Source: Prochlorothrix hollandica PCC 9006 = CALU 1027
Lineage (GTDB): Bacteria; Cyanobacteriota; Cyanobacteriia; Prochlorotrichales; Prochlorotrichaceae
DNA: 45,391 bases
Reading direction: 5' to 3'
Assembly (NCBI RefSeq): GCF_000332315.1
Contig: NZ_KB235938.1
Coordinates: 24,409 to 69,799, forward strand
Of this stretch, positions 31,669-45,391 are shown piece after piece. Positions within the stretch are counted from its first letter, which is position 1, and every line of letters starts with the position of its first letter. The position numbers and the translations under genes were made by a program. A model generated the notes under the pieces. It did no database searches. It was not told the origin of the DNA and saw only the letters and a list, made by a program, of their open reading frames with translations.

Positions 31669-31838
31669 CTACGGGATTGGGTTCTTTGACACCTCTGAAG
31701 ATACAAGGGGTCAGGTTTCCTGACCCTCCTGCGCGGTTCCCCTCTGGTTGCTGTGTGGACTGCCCCTGAAAGCAGGGCCAGATGAACGGGACAGTACCCA
31801 TTGTCCCGGCTTAAGGTGATAGCTGTCGGTTGAACCCA

Positions 31839-31941
31839 TGCAGCAGTCCTAAATGGGTCGTGTGGTGTGCCCCCGGAGGGGGCACACCACACCAAGGGTT
31901 TCAGCCGTCGCGATCCTTACAACTGATTTGGGATTGCTGTG
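31839..31941 (+). mobile_element. MITE family A, copy 7 (both terminal TA mutated to TG)
   Basis: The 103-bp copy begins TGCAGCAGTCCTAAATGGG and ends GATTTGGGATTGCTGTG. The internal palindrome is intact. Both outer TA dinucleotides read TG, so this copy may be immobile. Confidence 0.88.
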
Positions 31942-33101: not shown

Positions 33102-33432
33102 GGCTTGGGCGTAAATTCTAGGTTGCCACACAGTCTTAGCGGGTGGATTCATCCCACTTTAGACGGGCCAGAGGCTCCACGGGGAAGACATTACGCCCCG
33201 GATCTAGTCTTAAGAGCTAGGGGACAGGCTTACTCCCTAACGGTGAAGTTGTGCGGCGGCAAATAAGCTTGAATACCAACCGATAACCTCTGTACCGTCC
33301 GCACCAACGCAGTGTTAGCTCGCTGACTGCTACATCAAGGTCGAGGATTGAAAATAAAGTGCGTCTGACTAGATACAAATTATCTAAGATAGTATAAAAT
33401 CTGTAATAGGTACGAATTAGAATGAGATTCCC
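33102..33432. other. Gene-free junction between host DNA and accessory module
   Basis: Base composition drops from GC-rich to AT-rich here. It contains an attC-like site (33235-33320). Between that site and the methyltransferase gene are AT-rich sequences with weak promoter elements: TTGAAA at 33348 with poor partners, and TATAAA at 33393. No gene is seen. Confidence 0.65.
33235..33320 (-). other. Integron attC-like recombination site 0
   Basis: On the plus strand the site has CCCTAAC, five bases, AGTTGTGCGG, a ~42-nt centre, CCGCACCAAC, five bases, and GTTAGCT. The two arms pair over about 20 positions (CTAAC...GTTG-TGCGG against its inverse with GTTGGTGCGG). In known attC sites the extra unpaired base lies in the L'' arm. 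Here it lies in the plus-strand right arm, so the site points along the minus strand. Size 86 bp. No integrase is seen. Confidence 0.68.
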
Positions 33433-35850
33433 ATGTCACGTAGTTTGGAGATCAACTCGCTTGAGTCCTGGAAGCTAGAACTTGGCTTGCTTCCAGTACC
33501 TTTGTTTAGTTGTGAAAATCAAAATGACAAAGTAATTCTCCTTAATGGTAGAGTGGGAAACTTTTGCTTGGACTTAAGTACTGAATCAAATGATAAAGAT
33601 CCACGTAATTTAGCATGGTCTTCAGATGTCGGGCATTATGTCAAGCTCTCGAATAATACTGTAGAAGTTTACAGATGGGATAGTAAACCATCTTCTTTAG
33701 AGCGATACACAAAGAAAAGCGTTGAAGATAATCTAGAGAAGTTTTATACCTATCTGCAAAAGGATCAGCCTTCAAGACATCTATCTATTATTTCTTTTGC
33801 AATCAAAACTTTTAGAACTCTTAGAAGTGTATTAGGGAGTGATTTTGACGGTCAGCAGTCTCTAAAGGCTTTTCTTTACCTATTAGCCTGTGTAGCAGAT
33901 AATGTTAACCGCAATAAATTGAACATAGATAAGTGGGGACTGGCTTCTGACATTCAATCATCCATCGCTTCAGTTAATGATTCCAATTGGGAATCGCTAA
34001 TAGATAGCTTAAAAGCTGGAACTAGCTTTTATGGCTTAAGACCTAATATTTCTCTACTACTTCGTCATGCTTCAGGTACGCTTTTTCAAGAAGCGCACTA
34101 TGAAGCTTATACATTTAATCAAAGTAAACTACCCCTGCCTCTGCCAGGTTTATTGCCTGATCCTGTAACAGTTAAGAAAGAAACTAACTTTGCCGGCATA
34201 TACTATATACCACCGTCAATAGCGCGAACATTAGTTGAGGAAGCTTTGAATGCGGTAGGTGAGTTGCCGCCTACCTTAAATGTGTTTGATCCTGCTTGTG
34301 GCTCTGGAGTTTTCCTTAAGGAAGTTTTAAGGCAACTGTCTCTGAAAAATTATCAGGGAAAAGTAAGGCTTGAGGGTTGGGATATTTCACCAGCAGCCAT
34401 CGACATGGCGAGATTTATTCTTTTGTATGAAAAGGATCAAATTAGTAGCAAATTCTCAATAGATGTTGAGATATGCCACCGAGATTCTTTGGATAGAACC
34501 CACCAGTGGAGCAATGATGTAGATATCATTCTGATGAATCCTCCTTTCCTATCTTGGAACCATATGAATAAAAAGCAGAGAGAACTAGTGAAGGAATCAC
34601 TAGGTGACTTAATGCAGAAAACTCCAGATCTTTCGAGTGTTTTTCTATGGAAAGGAGTAAAAAGTATTTCCTCAAAGGGTGTTATCGCTTGTATTTTACC
34701 CACTTCTATTTTAGATGCTCAGTCACATCTCAAAATCAGAGAATCAATTCTTGCGCAGATCGATCTTTATCTAGTTGGCAAGTTGGGAAATGATCTTCTT
34801 TTTTCAAATGCTGAAATATATACTACAATTTTGGTTGCTCAGTCTCCAAAAAACAATAAGTTTGCGCTCTCACTATGGGCTGATCATAAATTAGAATCGT
34901 CTTCTGCTGTTTTACGCGCTTTGCGAAGATATAACTATTATGGAAGAGATCCATTCAACGTAGTAGATCAAAATGGCTTTAGTATTTATGAGAATCCATC
35001 TTTGAATGATAATCTTATCAGTTGGTCACCTCGTTCTTATAAAGCTTTCAATTTACTAAGGCAATTGGAGAAATTCTCGAAAGTAAAAGATATTTTCAAG
35101 ATCAGGCAAGGAGTTCTGACAGGTTTTAAGGCTGCTTTTCTATTGAGCAAAGAAACTATAGAAGCATTACCAAAGAAAGAGAGAAAATTTTTTAGACCTG
35201 CAATAGTAACTGAGTCAATAAGCAACAGTCATCTGTTGGACGTATCTTATGTCTTTTATCCTAATAGTAAAGACTTACCAAAAATTGATTCAGAAAATGA
35301 TCTTGATAAGTATGTAGAAGCCTATTATCAGACTTATCTATTGCCAAACAAATCAAAACTTATATCCAGGTCACGAAAAAGTGAAAACACTTGGTGGACG
35401 CTCAACGAGTATAGAGCTTGGCAAGTTGACAGAAAACCAAAGTTAGTTTCCACGTGCTTTGGAAAAGCTGGTTCTTTCGCCTGGGATGGATCGGGTGATT
35501 ATGTTGCTGTTCAAGGATATGCTTGGTTCTTGAAGAAGTCGAATATTTTTTCTGAGAAGCTTGGATTAGCTTATACTGCAATACTATCTTGTCCTTTTAT
35601 AAATAATTTATTGGCTTCTGTCTCTAATCATGTAGGTAGAGGTCAGTTGGACTTGTCAATTCGATATATTGAAAATATGCCAATCCCTGATTTGACCGCC
35701 AGTAATTTGGATTTGGACACTCTCGAATCCTTGTATAAAATTGGTGGTTTAATTAGTTCTGGCGAAGATTTTGATGACAGAGCTTTAAATGAGTTGGTTC
35801 TGTCTTTATATCAGTTGCAGAGCAATACTATTTCACTCTTAGAGCTTTAA
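33433..35850 (+). CDS. Adenine-specific (N6) DNA methyltransferase
   Basis: The protein has 805 residues. Residues ~1-240 are an uncharacterised N-terminal region. The catalytic domain follows, with an AdoMet-binding motif FDPACGSGVFLKE (about residue 285) and the N6-adenine motif IV NPPF in DIILMNPPFLSW (about 368). The C-terminal ~270 residues (from FKIRQGVLTGFKAAF) resemble the target-recognition half of type IIG/Eco57I-like or PglX-like enzymes. I see no PD-(D/E)XK motif, so it may be methylation-only or a IIG enzyme with an unrecognised nuclease. The AT-rich composition contrasts with host genes. The next gene starts 2 bp after the stop, making one transcription unit. It lies between two attC-like sites. 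Confidence 0.85.
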   Translation: MSRSLEINSLESWKLELGLLPVPLFSCENQNDKVILLNGRVGNFCLDLSTESNDKDPRNLAWSSDVGHYVKLSNNTVEVYRWDSKPSSLERYTKKSVEDNLEKFYTYLQKDQPSRHLSIISFAIKTFRTLRSVLGSDFDGQQSLKAFLYLLACVADNVNRNKLNIDKWGLASDIQSSIASVNDSNWESLIDSLKAGTSFYGLRPNISLLLRHASGTLFQEAHYEAYTFNQSKLPLPLPGLLPDPVTVKKETNFAGIYYIPPSIARTLVEEALNAVGELPPTLNVFDPACGSGVFLKEVLRQLSLKNYQGKVRLEGWDISPAAIDMARFILLYEKDQISSKFSIDVEICHRDSLDRTHQWSNDVDIILMNPPFLSWNHMNKKQRELVKESLGDLMQKTPDLSSVFLWKGVKSISSKGVIACILPTSILDAQSHLKIRESILAQIDLYLVGKLGNDLLFSNAEIYTTILVAQSPKNNKFALSLWADHKLESSSAVLRALRRYNYYGRDPFNVVDQNGFSIYENPSLNDNLISWSPRSYKAFNLLRQLEKFSKVKDIFKIRQGVLTGFKAAFLLSKETIEALPKKERKFFRPAIVTESISNSHLLDVSYVFYPNSKDLPKIDSENDLDKYVEAYYQTYLLPNKSKLISRSRKSENTWWTLNEYRAWQVDRKPKLVSTCFGKAGSFAWDGSGDYVAVQGYAWFLKKSNIFSEKLGLAYTAILSCPFINNLLASVSNHVGRGQLDLSIRYIENMPIPDLTASNLDLDTLESLYKIGGLISSGEDFDDRALNELVLSLYQLQSNTISLLEL

Positions 35851-35852
35851 GT

Positions 35853-36662
35853 ATGGGTAAAACTTCTCGTCAAAAACCTGTACAGTTCCCAGTTGGTGAT
35901 ACTAGTAAGATTTTGCAATCTTGTAAAAATAAACTCAAGCCTCTACTGGATAAACGCGAGTTAAATTTCATTCCATTACAGCAAGATTCGCAGCGCCATA
36001 TTTTTGCTCTTATTGCTAAGGATTCAAGCAATCTGATCACAACTGACGATAGAAGTAATAGACATCATATAGTTCCTCTGCTTTCAACTATATCTGGCAC
36101 TTATTGGCTCAATATATCTTTAACGTTTTTACCTATGTTTAGCCAATCTAAGCAAAAAACTGCTCCTCAAAGCTTTCAATTCTCAGGAGTTAGCATAAGA
36201 GTTTTTAAGGGATTAGCTACTGAAAATAAGAAAGAACCATTACTTCGGGCGGAATGGGACATTCTAAAAGATAATAATAATCACGCACAACCTCATTGGC
36301 ACGTCTATAAATCGTTTCAAATTAGAAACTTAAATGCTACAGCATCAGATTTTGAATCTCTGATTGAAGCCGATGAGGTACAAGATTTTGGAACTTGTGC
36401 AGAGAAGTTTAATTCTGGTGAAAGAGAGAATGATTTTCAAGAGGACTTAGGACAGAACAACACAGAAAATGAGCAGGCAAGTCTAAAAGAAAACGATTGG
36501 GACTTTGAAACTAAATTTCATTTTGCTATGGCATCTCAGTGGCATGTTAATGGAGGAACCCATAGGATTGTTATTGATCAAGAAGCTCTGCTGTATTCTT
36601 GGCTGGCGGGATGTGTTCAGTACATTAAGGAACAACTGCTATATGTTTCTGGTGGCCGATAA
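35853..36662 (+). CDS. Unknown protein coupled to the DNA methyltransferase
   Basis: I do not recognise this 269-residue protein. ATG 35853 is two bases after the methyltransferase stop, implying translational coupling. Distinct segments are HHIVPLLSTISGTYWLNISL (about residues 70-90), then EPLLRAEWDILKDNNNHAQP followed by HWHVYKSF (about 130-155). After an acidic stretch, FHFAMASQWHVNGGTHRIVI appears near 225. The clustered His/Trp/Glu/Asp residues (AEWD, QPHWHVY, QWHVNGG) could form a metal or active site, but no known nuclease motif is present. As partner of a methyltransferase it could be a nuclease, a specificity factor or a regulator; this is inference. Confidence 0.72.
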   Translation: MGKTSRQKPVQFPVGDTSKILQSCKNKLKPLLDKRELNFIPLQQDSQRHIFALIAKDSSNLITTDDRSNRHHIVPLLSTISGTYWLNISLTFLPMFSQSKQKTAPQSFQFSGVSIRVFKGLATENKKEPLLRAEWDILKDNNNHAQPHWHVYKSFQIRNLNATASDFESLIEADEVQDFGTCAEKFNSGERENDFQEDLGQNNTENEQASLKENDWDFETKFHFAMASQWHVNGGTHRIVIDQEALLYSWLAGCVQYIKEQLLYVSGGR

Positions 36663-36770
36663 GTTATGAAGAATGTTCTCAAGTAACCTTAAATGCTTGT
36701 CCCAACCAAGGACTTAAGCGAGCTAACTATTAAGAATGAAATCAGCAACCTCAACAGACTTTTTGGTTCG

Positions 36771-36857
36771 GTATAACGCTCCCCTTTAGCGGCTGCAAGT
36801 AACCTTTGCATCACCATCAGTAGCTTTCGGCAGTGCGCTGCAAGGGGTTTGTTATGT
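36771..36857 (-). other. Integron attC-like recombination site 1 (VCR-like ends)
   Basis: The outer boxes are GTATAAC and GTTATGT. The arms pair as AACGCTCCCCTTTAGCGGCT against AACAAACCCCTTGCAGCGCA. On the minus strand it begins ATAACAAACCCC and ends GGGGAGCGTTATAC, closely resembling the Vibrio cholerae repeat ends. Extra bases in the minus-strand left arm give minus polarity. It starts only 6 bp after the stop codon of the DUF1348 gene, the usual place for a cassette's attC. Size 87 bp. Confidence 0.62.
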
Positions 36858-36862
36858 GGCGA

Positions 36863-37288
36863 TCAGTGGCGTTCCCAACGAAACTTGCGTTCAGACTCTT
36901 GAATGGGGACATCATTAATGCTGGCAAATCGACGCATCATTAAACCATTGTCAGCAAATTCCCAGTTTTCATTGCCATAGGCACGATACCAAGAACCTGC
37001 GTCATCATGCCACTCATACTCGAATCGCACGGCAATGCGATTATCCATAAAACACCAGAGTTCCTTCTGCAAACGGTAATCGAGTTCCTTGGCCCATTTG
37101 CGTTTGAGAAATGCTTTGATGGCCGTTCGTCCGCTAAAAAATTCAGCCCGATTGCGCCACTCAGAGTCTTCGGTGTAGGCAAGAGCGACTCGCTCCGGAT
37201 CTCGGGTATTCCAGGCATCTTCAGCCGCCTGCACTTTGATCTTGGCAGTTTCTAGCGTAAATGGAGGCAGCGGTGGTTTGGTTTCCAT
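36863..37288 (-). CDS. DUF1348 (NTF2/SnoaL-like) protein
   Basis: This 141-residue NTF2-like alpha+beta-barrel protein of the DUF1348 group has family landmarks [35 protein letters not shown] and [19 protein letters not shown], plus the [10 protein letters not shown] tail. Function is unknown; SnoaL-like relatives bind or convert small organic molecules. ATG 37288. Its stop codon lies 6 bp from an attC-like site, the arrangement of an integron gene cassette. The next genes upstream (PNPOx, ADH fragment, GST) are on the same strand and may be co-transcribed. Confidence 0.85.
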
Positions 37289-39439: not shown

Positions 39440-39600
39440 GTTGTTATCTGCATCATGTGCGATGCCTGCAAAGTTGTCCAAGACTTGTTTTGTGGTAATC
39501 TGATACTCAAAAGGTATCAGCGGTGAATCCGATTTTCAAACGCCCTGGCTTCTCGTTACATCAAGCCGAGTCATTGCCAATGAGGAATTTATCCGAAGGA

Positions 39601-39703
39601 TACAGCAGTCCTAAATGGGTCGTGTGGTGCGCCCCCGGAGGGGGCACACCACACCAAGGGTTTCAGCCATCGAGATGCCTACAACTGATTTAGGGTTGCT
39701 GTA
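39601..39703 (+). mobile_element. MITE family A, copy 8
   Basis: A 103-bp copy starts TACAGCAGTCCTAAATGGG and ends GATTTAGGGTTGCTGTA. Its end is 3 bp before the LysR ATG, so it supplies the whole immediate leader of that gene. Confidence 0.92.
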
Positions 39704-41585: not shown

Positions 41586-42581
41586 TTATTGCTCATCTTT
41601 GCTTGCAAGTAATTCATAAAACTCATTCAGTTTTCTTCTCAAAAGGTCTTTCGGGATGAGTTTGATTTCGTATTCCGCAACAACCGTAGGACTGATTGAT
41701 CGGCTGAGAGCGTATTCGACCACTTCATCATCTTTGTCTCGGCAGAGTAGAACGCCGATACTAGGATTTTCGTGAGCTTTTCTGATGTCACGATCAAGAG
41801 CTTCGAGATAGAATTCAAGTTGTCCAAGATATTCGGGTCTAAATTTATCGATTTTGAGTTCAAAGGCAACGAGGCTCTGGAGTTCGCGGTGGTAGAAAAG
41901 GAGGTCGATGAAAAAGTCACTATTACCAACTTGGAGGCGATATTCTTCTCCAAGAAAAGTAAAGTCTCGACCAAGCTCTAGGATAAATTTTTGGAGGCAA
42001 GAGACAAGTGCTGTTTTTAGATCGTTTTCGGAGTGTTTGGAAGGCAAATTGAGAAAATCGAGGACGTAACTATCTCGAAAGATTCCAGCGAGTGGTTGAG
42101 GGTGGGTAGTTGGTGAAAGTCTAGCATCGGCGAGACGGGTACGCTCGAAGATCCCGCTATTGATTTGGCGATCAAGTTCACGGGTACTGTAGCGTTCGGT
42201 AGCAGCGAGATCAAGATAAAAAAGCCGCTCGGATTCAGTTTTACATCGCGACATGATGATGCGATGGTGAGTCCAACTCAATTGCGTCCGCAGTGCGGTC
42301 GTAATTTGTGAATCGGGATAGATTTCGTAAAATTGACGCATTCTTTCGAGGTTGCGCTTTTCAAATCCTTTCAGTCCAGGTTCTTGGGTTTGGATGAAAG
42401 CTGCAAGTTGCTCGATTGTTTTTTGCCCCCATTCACTTGTGGCTAGGCGATCGCTGATGTATTTACCGATGTTCCAGTAAAGTTTGATCAGTTCTTGGTT
42501 GGCAGAAGCGATGACCTTTTGCTGAGCAGTTTTGATGAGGGTGAGTACTTCAGTAAATTGAGGTTGCAAAGATTCTGACAT
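41586..42581 (-). CDS. DUF1016 (YhcG-like) PDDEXK nuclease-family protein
   Basis: The protein has 331 residues. The N-terminal DUF1016 helical domain (LIKTAQQKVIASANQELIKL, WNIGKYI, GLKGFEKRNLERMRQFYEIY) is followed by a C-terminal PDDEXK nuclease fold. The fold has FFIDLLFYHRELQSLVAFEL (D, then ExK completed by ELKIDKF). Landmarks FTFLGEEYRLQVGNSDFFID and GVLLCRDKDDEVVEYAL agree. The family is linked to restriction-modification and defence or mobile contexts; its precise role is unsettled. It is AT-rich relative to host genes. An attC-like site follows its 3' end, so it may be a cassette gene. Confidence 0.9.
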   Translation of the reverse strand: MSESLQPQFTEVLTLIKTAQQKVIASANQELIKLYWNIGKYISDRLATSEWGQKTIEQLAAFIQTQEPGLKGFEKRNLERMRQFYEIYPDSQITTALRTQLSWTHHRIIMSRCKTESERLFYLDLAATERYSTRELDRQINSGIFERTRLADARLSPTTHPQPLAGIFRDSYVLDFLNLPSKHSENDLKTALVSCLQKFILELGRDFTFLGEEYRLQVGNSDFFIDLLFYHRELQSLVAFELKIDKFRPEYLGQLEFYLEALDRDIRKAHENPSIGVLLCRDKDDEVVEYALSRSISPTVVAEYEIKLIPKDLLRRKLNEFYELLASKDEQ

Positions 42582-43166: not shown

Positions 43167-44375
43167 TTAATAAAGATCTACACCATCTCCGGGTAAAACT
43201 TTCACCACAGTAGATTTCTTAGCAGATGGCTTCAACTCTTCGTTAGTTTCATACGGCTTATTGTCTTCATGTGCAATTTCTTTACTAAGCTGAATTATTT
43301 CAAGTTGATTGCTTGAAATATAAAACTCAACATCATTTTCGTACAGCAAGTTAAAGTAAGCGTTGGAAGTGAGTAAATTTGCGTTAATTGGCTTTAACCA
43401 CCCCTTCTTTACCGATTCATAGGTTAGAAGCCATTTTTCATCGAACAATTCAATGCTAGTTAACTCAGATTCTAATCCAGAAACATCTAAATAACCAGCG
43501 ATTAAACCGCTATCTCTCATGTCCAGGAGTATTAAAATAGAAATTGAATCGCCAAGTAAAACAATTTTTTCAGCCACTTGAACATCAATAGCTATCTTTA
43601 AACTCTTTAGGAGCCAAAGTGACCAAAAAACTTCAAATAGATGACCTTTAAAGCAATGAATTGATATAATTTCTTTCGCCAATACTCCAACTTTTTCTTT
43701 GGAAACTAGAGATTCATTACTTATAAGAATTCTAGTGACTTCTGGAAGAGTAGAGGGTTCACTAAGAGCAGACTTTAAAAGTAAAGACTCAAATGTATCC
43801 CAGTTTTCAGGTAGTATCTCTAAATATTCTAGCCGTTTAACAGCATATCTTAACACCGTATCTCTAGGATACTTTTGAGCATATTCGAAAGCCAAGCTAA
43901 AATAGCGGTATAAATCTGTTCTCTGACTAGTCTTGCCAGTTCTAAATTCAAATCTGCTGAGAAATATAGACCAAAAGCTTTCAAACGGAACTGGAAAACA
44001 TTCTATAACTGTTTTTTCCGCATTAATGTCAAGATGGTAGAAAGTAAGTAATGATTGCAAGCACTTTAATGTTTTTTCTGCATTAGTGGAATCTGAAAAG
44101 AATAAAAAATAATCGTCATAATACCTTGCACCGTTTGAATCACCAATTTTGCTTACCAATTCCTGATCAATTTTGCATGCAATTATTTCCGAAATAATGA
44201 GTGATGTATCGGGACCAGTTGGAATCCCTATTGTTTGCCCTGATTGAGTATTTCGCACATCTCGATCTAAGATATTGCCCAAAAGAGAATAGTCATCCCT
44301 CTTTTCCTTGGCTATAGGTTTAGTATGAATTGCCCATGGAATAATGTGAGTATAAATAGTTGAATAATATCTAGA
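43167..44375 (-). pseudogene. Abi/UG-type (defence) reverse transcriptase, 5' part removed by IS630 insertion
   Basis: The open frame encodes RT motifs. SRYYSTIYTHIIPWAIHTK is the segment just after the first catalytic Asp. RNTQSGQTIGIPTGPDTSLI and the catalytic YYDD box ARYYDDYFLFF follow, then LDINAEKTVIE. About 260 residues of helical repeat-like sequence come next, as in Abi and UG (unknown group) defence RTs. No methionine start is needed upstream: the frame stays open to the IS630 end at 44376, where the gene is cut just after the first catalytic Asp codon. The missing N-terminus should lie beyond the IS, outside the window. The exact RT group is not assigned. Confidence 0.85.
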
Positions 44376-45391
44376 TACAGCAGTCCCAAATGGGTCGTAT
44401 TTATTTTATAATAGAAACCCAAGGTATTTCATTGGACAAGTGTATGCAAATGATTTCAACTTCTGAAGAATCCAGTGATTTAAAAGACCTTGAGGATTTT
44501 ATCCGAAGTAATCCACATCCTCAAGAACTTAAACGTGGTTTGGTCATTCAGATGTTGTCGGAACAGATCCCGATAAGTAAGATCATGAAAATATTAGGAG
44601 TGTCTGAGTCATTTGTACTTAAGTGGAAAAATATATTTGCTCTAGATGGAGTAGAAGCATTGAAACTTCAATATGCCGGTTCGGAAGGATATTTATCTCA
44701 GAAACAGCAAGAAGAAATACATCAATTCCTACAATCTAAGAGTGCATGGACTTTGGATGAGCTAAAATATCATGTTTTAGTAACTTATGACGTTATTTAT
44801 CAATCGGATCAAAGTTACCATAATATGTTTCATGAAGCTAAAATTAGTTGGAAGAAAACTCAAAAAAGAACCCCAAAAAGGATCCAGAGAAAGTTGAGGA
44901 ACGGCGTGTTGAAATCAAAGATTTATTGGAGAAATGTACAGATAGCATAATGCCTGAAAAGCTTGTGGTGTGGTTTGTTGACGAATGTCATCTGTTGTGG
45001 GGAGATGTCTTAGGCTATGTTTGGGGTAAGCAGAGTGAACGACTGGAAGTACCCATAACTAATGAGAGAGAAAGAGTAACATATTATGGAGCATTGAATT
45101 ATTTGACTGGTAAATTTGTTGTTCAACAATATGATGCTGGAAATTCAGCTAATACAGTGGAGTTTGTTAAATATTTAAGAAGCTTGTTCCTCGAATCAAG
45201 ACATTTAATAATTTGGGATGGAGCTAGTTATCATAAATATAAGGAAATGGCAGATTACCTCAAAGATATCAATCAAGGTATTGAGAAGGAAAACTGGCCA
45301 GTAACTTGTGAATTATTTGCGCCTCACGATCCAGACCAGAACCCAGTAGAAGATGTTTGGCTCAAGGCCAAGAGCTTTGTAAGAGAATATT
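44376..45391 (+). mobile_element. IS630-family insertion sequence, right end outside window
   Basis: The element begins at a TA with TACAGCAGTCCCAAATGGG, which is the left end of the MITE A family. It carries a DDE transposase. It is AT-rich and has inserted into the reverse-transcriptase gene. The window stops inside it, so the right end and TA duplication cannot be seen. Confidence 0.88.
44444..45391 (+). CDS. IS630-family transposase, two frames joined by a probable -1 frameshift, partial
   Basis: Frame 1 (to the stop at 44950) encodes the N-terminal helix-turn-helix domains: FIRSNPHPQELKRGLVIQML, ISKIMKILGVSESFVLKWKN and WTLDELKYHVLV. At 44862-44868 lies A AAA AAG, where tRNA-Lys can slip back one base; from 44866 frame -1 continues NPKKDPEKVEERRVEIKDLL. 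That frame contains the DDE catalytic core: VVWFVDECHLLWGD (first Asp), LIIWDGASYHK (second Asp) and HDPDQNPVEDVWL (Glu in the NPxE motif). The frame remains open to the end of the window. Either programmed frameshifting or a mutation explains the split; the A6G run favours the former, as in several IS630 groups. ATG 44444 is the likely start. Confidence 0.8.

Follow-up and report, generated by a model that had tools for sequence, protein, structure and literature searches.

The window analyzed here, a 45,391-nt stretch of Prochlorothrix hollandica PCC 9006 (contig NZ_KB235938.1, positions 24,409 to 69,799), contains two adjacent ORFs on the plus strand. The first (33433-35850) encodes an 805-aa protein predicted to be a gamma-class N6-adenine DNA methyltransferase (MTase), and the second (35853-36662) encodes a 269-aa orphan partner protein, p2, with a gap of 2 bp between them. 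The two ORFs, their sizes, spacing, and direction are those given in the original prediction, which had also described a composition unlike that of the host. The GC content is 37% in the MTase-p2 module and 54% in the remaining window. The pair is compact, with two genes in 3.2 kb.

The pair is flanked by two attC sites on the minus strand that are 3.46 kb apart: site 0 (33237-33318), the left boundary of the cassette, and site 1 (36774-36857), the right boundary, which is part of an adjoining cassette. The adjoining cassette is an ordinary one in array orientation and carries a DUF1348 (SnoaL-like) gene (36863-37288, minus strand; Pfam DUF1348, 8.8e-67), the stop codon of which adjoins site 1. 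Site 0 agrees at 77 of 82 positions with a site that neighbors the integron integrase of contig C7 in the same genome, and its family occupies about ten places across the genome, several of them clustered on C12. Seven copies keep the stem of site 0, 3 of its 20 pairs having both members altered; the stem of site 1 likewise persists in relatives on C9, C1, C12, and C4, in which both partners of 5 of 25 pairs have changed. Folded singly, the sites show no convincing excess over shuffled sequences (z from -0.3 to -1.9); we accept them as attC sites because their families repeat in the genome and their stems covary, not because of single-sequence folding. Complete integron integrases scoring over the TIGR02249 cut-off are encoded on C5 and C7, and partial integrase matches are found on C10 and on C6, 2.1 kb right of the window end, the latter being the match near the cassette. 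The proposal that attC-like sites bound the pair is thus upheld, as both sites belong to repeated families in a genome with intact integrases, and the pair has the makeup of an integron gene cassette.

An attI-like sequence lies right of the cassette, upstream of the integrase remnant on C6, and the array should therefore run leftwards, on the minus strand. This layout suggests that the MTase-p2 pair is antisense to the cassette array, in agreement with the earlier claim that its direction is opposite to the attC polarity. No sigma-70-like promoter was found on the plus strand of the leader (33319-33432). Beside site 1, a sequence of about 44 bp ending in GGTTCGGTATAAC (window 36734-36777) shows 86-96% identity to the attI-side sequence at three integrase loci (C6:71358-71402, C10:6743-6787, and C7:355218-355259).

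Further copies of the site 0 family are present elsewhere in the genome at C12:207162-235744 and 81952, C9:1294425, C7:346476, C1:413938, and C4:347929, including five copies within 29 kb on C12. These copies, on C12 and elsewhere, probably mark additional cassette arrays, or clusters of attC sites that have no integrase close by. The 56 bp left of site 0 (33181-33236) recur together with attC on C12 (five copies) and C9 (one copy), and the repeat unit is therefore longer than attC alone.

The MTase matches the Pfam families N6_Mtase (2.6e-17) and Eco57I (1.5e-9) above the cut-off. Its nearest solved relative by sequence in the PDB is CamA, and Foldseek ranks CamA and M.BseCI first for its structural model, with BpuSI among the matches; this model is of low confidence (pLDDT 54) and served for overall kinship only. 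Motif I (DPACGSG, residues 286-292, 34288-34308) and the N6-adenine-type motif IV (NPPF, residues 369-372, 34537-34548) are invariant or nearly so at the nine loci compared, with D286, A288-S291, and N369-P371 strictly invariant, which together with a presumed recognition region places the enzyme in the gamma class. The target-recognition region presumably spans residues 476-705 or so (34858-35547), as suggested by its location past motif IV and by a weak Methylase_S match (E = 0.017) that falls under the Pfam cut-off. Residues 1-240, approximately (33433-34152), form a domain that is conserved in the alignments and gives no notable match in PADLOC, Pfam, or the PDB. Judged by its sequence, the MTase core is of the ordinary kind, with an N-terminal domain matching no family.

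Compared with the type II gamma-class N6-adenine MTases M.BseCI and CamA, the latter an orphan enzyme of C. difficile, which give the best sequence and fold matches, the MTase shows the same motif order, NPPF motif, and C-terminal recognition region, but it is longer by the conserved N-terminal domain (some 240 aa) and comes with an obligate partner gene. It also shares the Eco57I-type core with the type IIG enzymes (Eco57I, BpuSI, and MmeI), whereas its N-terminal domain lacks the invariant Lys of a PD-(D/E)XK-like nuclease and its partner gene is separate. A hidden type IIG nuclease in residues 1-240 is unlikely, as no invariant Lys and no family match are found there. Similarity to BREX PglX and MADS MAD2 is weak and lies in the MTase core. 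The MTase scores 49.6 bits against the PglX NCBIfam cut-off of 500, with no PglZ, BrxC, or other BREX genes among the neighbors examined, and 26.8 bits against the MAD2 cut-off of 720, with the other mad genes absent beside the pair, so membership in BREX or MADS was rejected. The pair does not correspond to any listed or candidate system in PADLOC-DB 2.0.0, in which the MTase gives generic MTase-type matches only and p2 gives none.

Searches of Pfam, PADLOC, NCBIfam, and PHROGs with p2 returned no match, and no match in the PDB was significant; scans with eight members of the p2 family also gave no family match. A PDB match of the p2 profile to 4tyz (E = 0.016) covers the single PHW stretch and was judged to be due to chance. 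On the sequence comparisons made here, p2 represents an unnamed protein family with no relative in the family libraries searched. Twelve positions of p2 are invariant across the nine loci (W85, R132, E134, W135, P147, H148, W149, H223, A225, W230, W250, and Y257), and the set was unchanged by the addition of the viral-contig member, which had been found by its MTase alone. Three short segments stand out: R132-A-E134-W135 (36246-36257), three of whose four residues are invariant; P147-H148-W149 (36291-36299), invariant throughout; and H223-F-A225 (36519-36527), in which H and A are invariant. Two of the three conserved-looking patches of the original prediction are borne out, AEWD with the core RxEW and QPHWHVY with the core PHW, while in QWHVNGG W230 is the one invariant residue and the rest varies.

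In the p2 model (pLDDT 67.7, pTM 0.68), one helix and another at the C-terminus accompany a long antiparallel sheet. E134 closes one strand, H148 opens the following one, and a third strand, past a low-confidence insert, bears H223. We would venture as a guess from this model that these three residues form an E-H-H metal site. Foldseek finds no significant neighbor of the fold in the PDB or BFVD. A PD-(D/E)XK nuclease is not supported, as no Asp or Lys is invariant among the nine sequences, the alignment of which is weak outside the core, and inspection by eye revealed no conserved HNH, GIY-YIG, or HKD pattern. Family searches and residue conservation both argue against p2 being a known nuclease. 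The earlier statement that p2 carries no known nuclease motif accordingly stands, none being indicated by family searches, Foldseek, or residue conservation.

We compared nine divergent loci, drawn from Cyanobacteria, Alpha- and Betaproteobacteria, an Acidobacterium, two plasmids, and one IMG/VR viral contig, and p2 lies behind the same type of MTase at all nine, whichever protein was used for the search. A p2-led scan of one genome per species gave four further loci (Pseudanabaena, Aphanizomenon, Sulfuritalea, and an Acidobacterium), each with a same-type MTase directly upstream of p2. Genome G103, which has the same arrangement, was excluded as an independent locus since its copy is close to that of Aphanizomenon, and the Sulfuritalea genome carries a second, diverged copy of the operon. 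In the MTase-led plasmid search, two full-length relatives were found, in Sinorhizobium mexicanum and Sphingomonas sp. NY01, each followed by a 'hypothetical protein' with about 20% identity to p2 and the core residues kept. The MTase profile gave one full-length relative on viral contigs, L070, in which p2 follows 12 bp after the MTase and carries RAEWD, GQPHWH, and MHLAM; the other viral-contig matches cover part of the query only, mostly the general MTase core. When p2 was the query, viral contigs and phage records gave nothing, and plasmids gave the two known loci only. An early MTase-led viral scan had been empty before a broader profile found L070, and empty pattern scans are therefore not taken as absence.

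Every full-length MTase of this type that turned up was accompanied by p2. The original prediction depended on a conserved association of p2 with the MTase and on p2 not belonging to a known non-defense family; the association holds at every full-length locus, and p2 has no family match. The intergenic gaps between the two genes range from -29 to +22 bp. A MerR-like gene lies upstream of the MTase in four Proteobacterial operons, its Pfam match being weak or absent in some, and the Proteobacterial non-viral loci are those with this added gene. Two other MTase-partner arrangements were noted. At L009:4583-7831 (G253), a different Eco57I-like MTase of 883 aa is followed by an orphan 195-aa protein with a D..H.H..HxAL pattern that resembles p2 by eye; hhalign gives 0.3% probability for a remote p2, no relatives were found, and a distant kinship with p2 is at most a possibility. 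On a Roseibium algicola plasmid (L018:4143-7712), a 950-aa N6 MTase has immediately behind it a 238-aa protein that carries an IECKR motif; this partner differs from p2 and is, by eye, a PD-(D/E)XK-like candidate.

Purifying selection acts on both genes (omega 0.11-0.38; dS is saturated for distant pairs), the resolved groups of the p2 and MTase trees agree, and p2 diverges faster than the MTase. An MTase that adjoins a partner gene as a conserved unit, at nine loci and in both search directions, is the arrangement of a type II restriction-modification (R-M) system. We tentatively favor, at a little short of an even chance, the reading that the pair is a two-gene R-M-like self/non-self DNA system on an integron cassette, with p2 as its restriction or effector component. 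The MTase, from its motifs and homology, would methylate adenine in the host DNA at a specific site by means of its own target-recognition region. The product of the second gene of the operon, p2, would in this role act on incoming DNA that is unmethylated, probably relying on the MTase for DNA recognition, and may work through the conserved R132/E134/H148/H223 cluster.

We assign this role to p2 because the whole has the anatomy of type II R-M: a site-specific MTase is joined by an obligate partner that evolves faster, and the pair is often mobile, lies in one case within a defense island, and sometimes has a small regulator. The reciprocal searches, in which p2 always led to the MTase and the MTase always led to p2, point the same way, as do the intact and invariant catalytic motifs of the MTase and the shared purifying selection and compatible trees of the two genes. 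Restriction enzymes usually diverge faster than their MTases, and controller genes precede some R-M systems; the faster divergence of p2 and the MerR-like gene before the four Proteobacterial operons are consistent with this pattern. Like two-gene type II R-M systems, the pair forms one operon, is mobile and patchy, and sometimes has a small DNA-binding-like regulator upstream. It differs from them in that p2, a putative restriction component, has no known nuclease signature or fold. The lack of a nuclease signature and of a significant structural neighbor counts against the R-M-like reading, and fast divergence is also expected of any fast-evolving accessory protein.

The main alternative, ahead of addiction and then of modification only, is that p2 is an obligatory accessory subunit of the MTase with a DNA-binding, folding, or allosteric role, in a complex that itself fixes an epigenetic state or keeps foreign DNA out. 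Strict pairing and co-inheritance fit a subunit, as does a p2 without nuclease motif whose conserved aromatic residues may suit binding. BREX PglX, which may act in this manner within BREX, offers a loose parallel, but no other BREX gene is conserved beside the pair. Against it, the MTase already has a catalytic and a presumed recognition region, and a core subunit would be less expected to outpace the MTase in divergence, as p2 does; we consider this alternative unlikely.

The family is rare and patchy, being found in 2 of 386 cyanobacterial species; the pair was absent from 29 of the nearest relatives of the window's genome, and 398 Pseudomonadota and 199 Acidobacteriota gave no further genome beyond the query centers themselves. 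Its addresses are often mobile, among them the integron cassette in the window, two plasmids, and the viral contig, which carries integrase-like and lysozyme-like ORFs (by eye). The surroundings of the Acidobacterium pair, with genes for relaxase and type IV secretion, belong here too, as do the PDDEXK_2 genes next to the pair in G103. In Sinorhizobium, the pair is part of a defense island with PDC-S36, a RelE/ParE toxin, PDC-S28, and an nSTAND3 protein. This rare, patchy, and mobile distribution and the Sinorhizobium island argue for the R-M-like reading; against it, most loci are outside recognized defense islands, and the PDC families are candidate defense systems only. The original prediction of a defense pair fits the mobile contexts and the one clear island, whereas its BREX-like variant is not supported, with scores well under the cut-offs and no further BREX genes alongside.

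Mobile addresses, together with the fact that p2 is never met without the MTase, would also suit an addiction module: p2 would be toxic, through the cell's own DNA when unmethylated or through some other target, the MTase would protect against it, and the main effect of the pair would be its own retention on plasmids, phages, and cassettes. Addiction modules are common cargo of integron cassettes. We regard this as distinctly improbable, as an MTase of 805 aa is a costly antitoxin; the mechanism, moreover, overlaps with that of R-M, which may be addictive too. A role in modification only, with the pair marking or shielding the DNA of a mobile element against host restriction, or regulating genes, with no attack, seems more doubtful still. 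The orphan MTase CamA being the closest solved relative would agree with it, as would an ORF near the viral-contig copy that is ArdC-like by eye, but it leaves the constant presence of p2 unexplained, and the pair is found on chromosomes too and is kept under selection.

Distant bacteria, plasmids, and one viral contig all carry this pair, and on that ground it is probably a compact defense system that tells self from non-self DNA and in which p2 falls outside the described protein families. As a strictly co-inherited MTase partner for which the searched family libraries contain no detectable relative, p2 is a promising place to look for restriction or effector chemistry of a new kind, and there is a fair chance that it has such chemistry. 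A bolder version, which we rate as rather unlikely, is that p2 defines a new family of effectors or nucleases whose active site is R-E-H-H in an undescribed fold. With the MTase, and with the MerR-like regulator in Proteobacteria, it would then make up a very compact defense system of a new, modification-dependent type, for which phages, plasmids, and integron cassettes are the vehicles. We found no description of the MTase-p2 pair in the literature searched, a search that most subscription journals lay outside. Defense cassettes of integrons are reportedly the subject of work by Darracq et al. (doi 10.1126/science.ads0768) and Kieffer et al. (doi 10.1126/science.ads0915). The present case resembles such cassettes in being a defense-like module with attC, but differs in its cyanobacterial host, its long 3.46-kb two-gene cassette, and its orientation antisense to the array. 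The reference list of PMC13092281 indicates that integron defense cassettes have already been reported; a modification-type module placed antisense in the integron cassette of a cyanobacterium widens the view of integrons as repositories of defense genes.

Other genes and repeats were observed around the loci. Upstream of the pair in G103 (L006:2006-6204) there are four near-identical tandem PDDEXK_2 (Rpn-like transposase) genes, and the Aphanizomenon locus (L011) has one copy at the same place. The window also contains a DUF1016_N and YhcG_C PD-(D/E)XK nuclease gene (41586-42581, minus strand), a partial reverse-transcriptase match (43167-44282, minus strand), and a winged-helix transposase-like gene (44390-44950, plus strand), the last two at about 34% GC. 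A 103-bp direct repeat with 92% identity is present at 31838-31940 and 39600-39702, and it contains a perfect-looking GTGTGGTG..CACCACAC hairpin.
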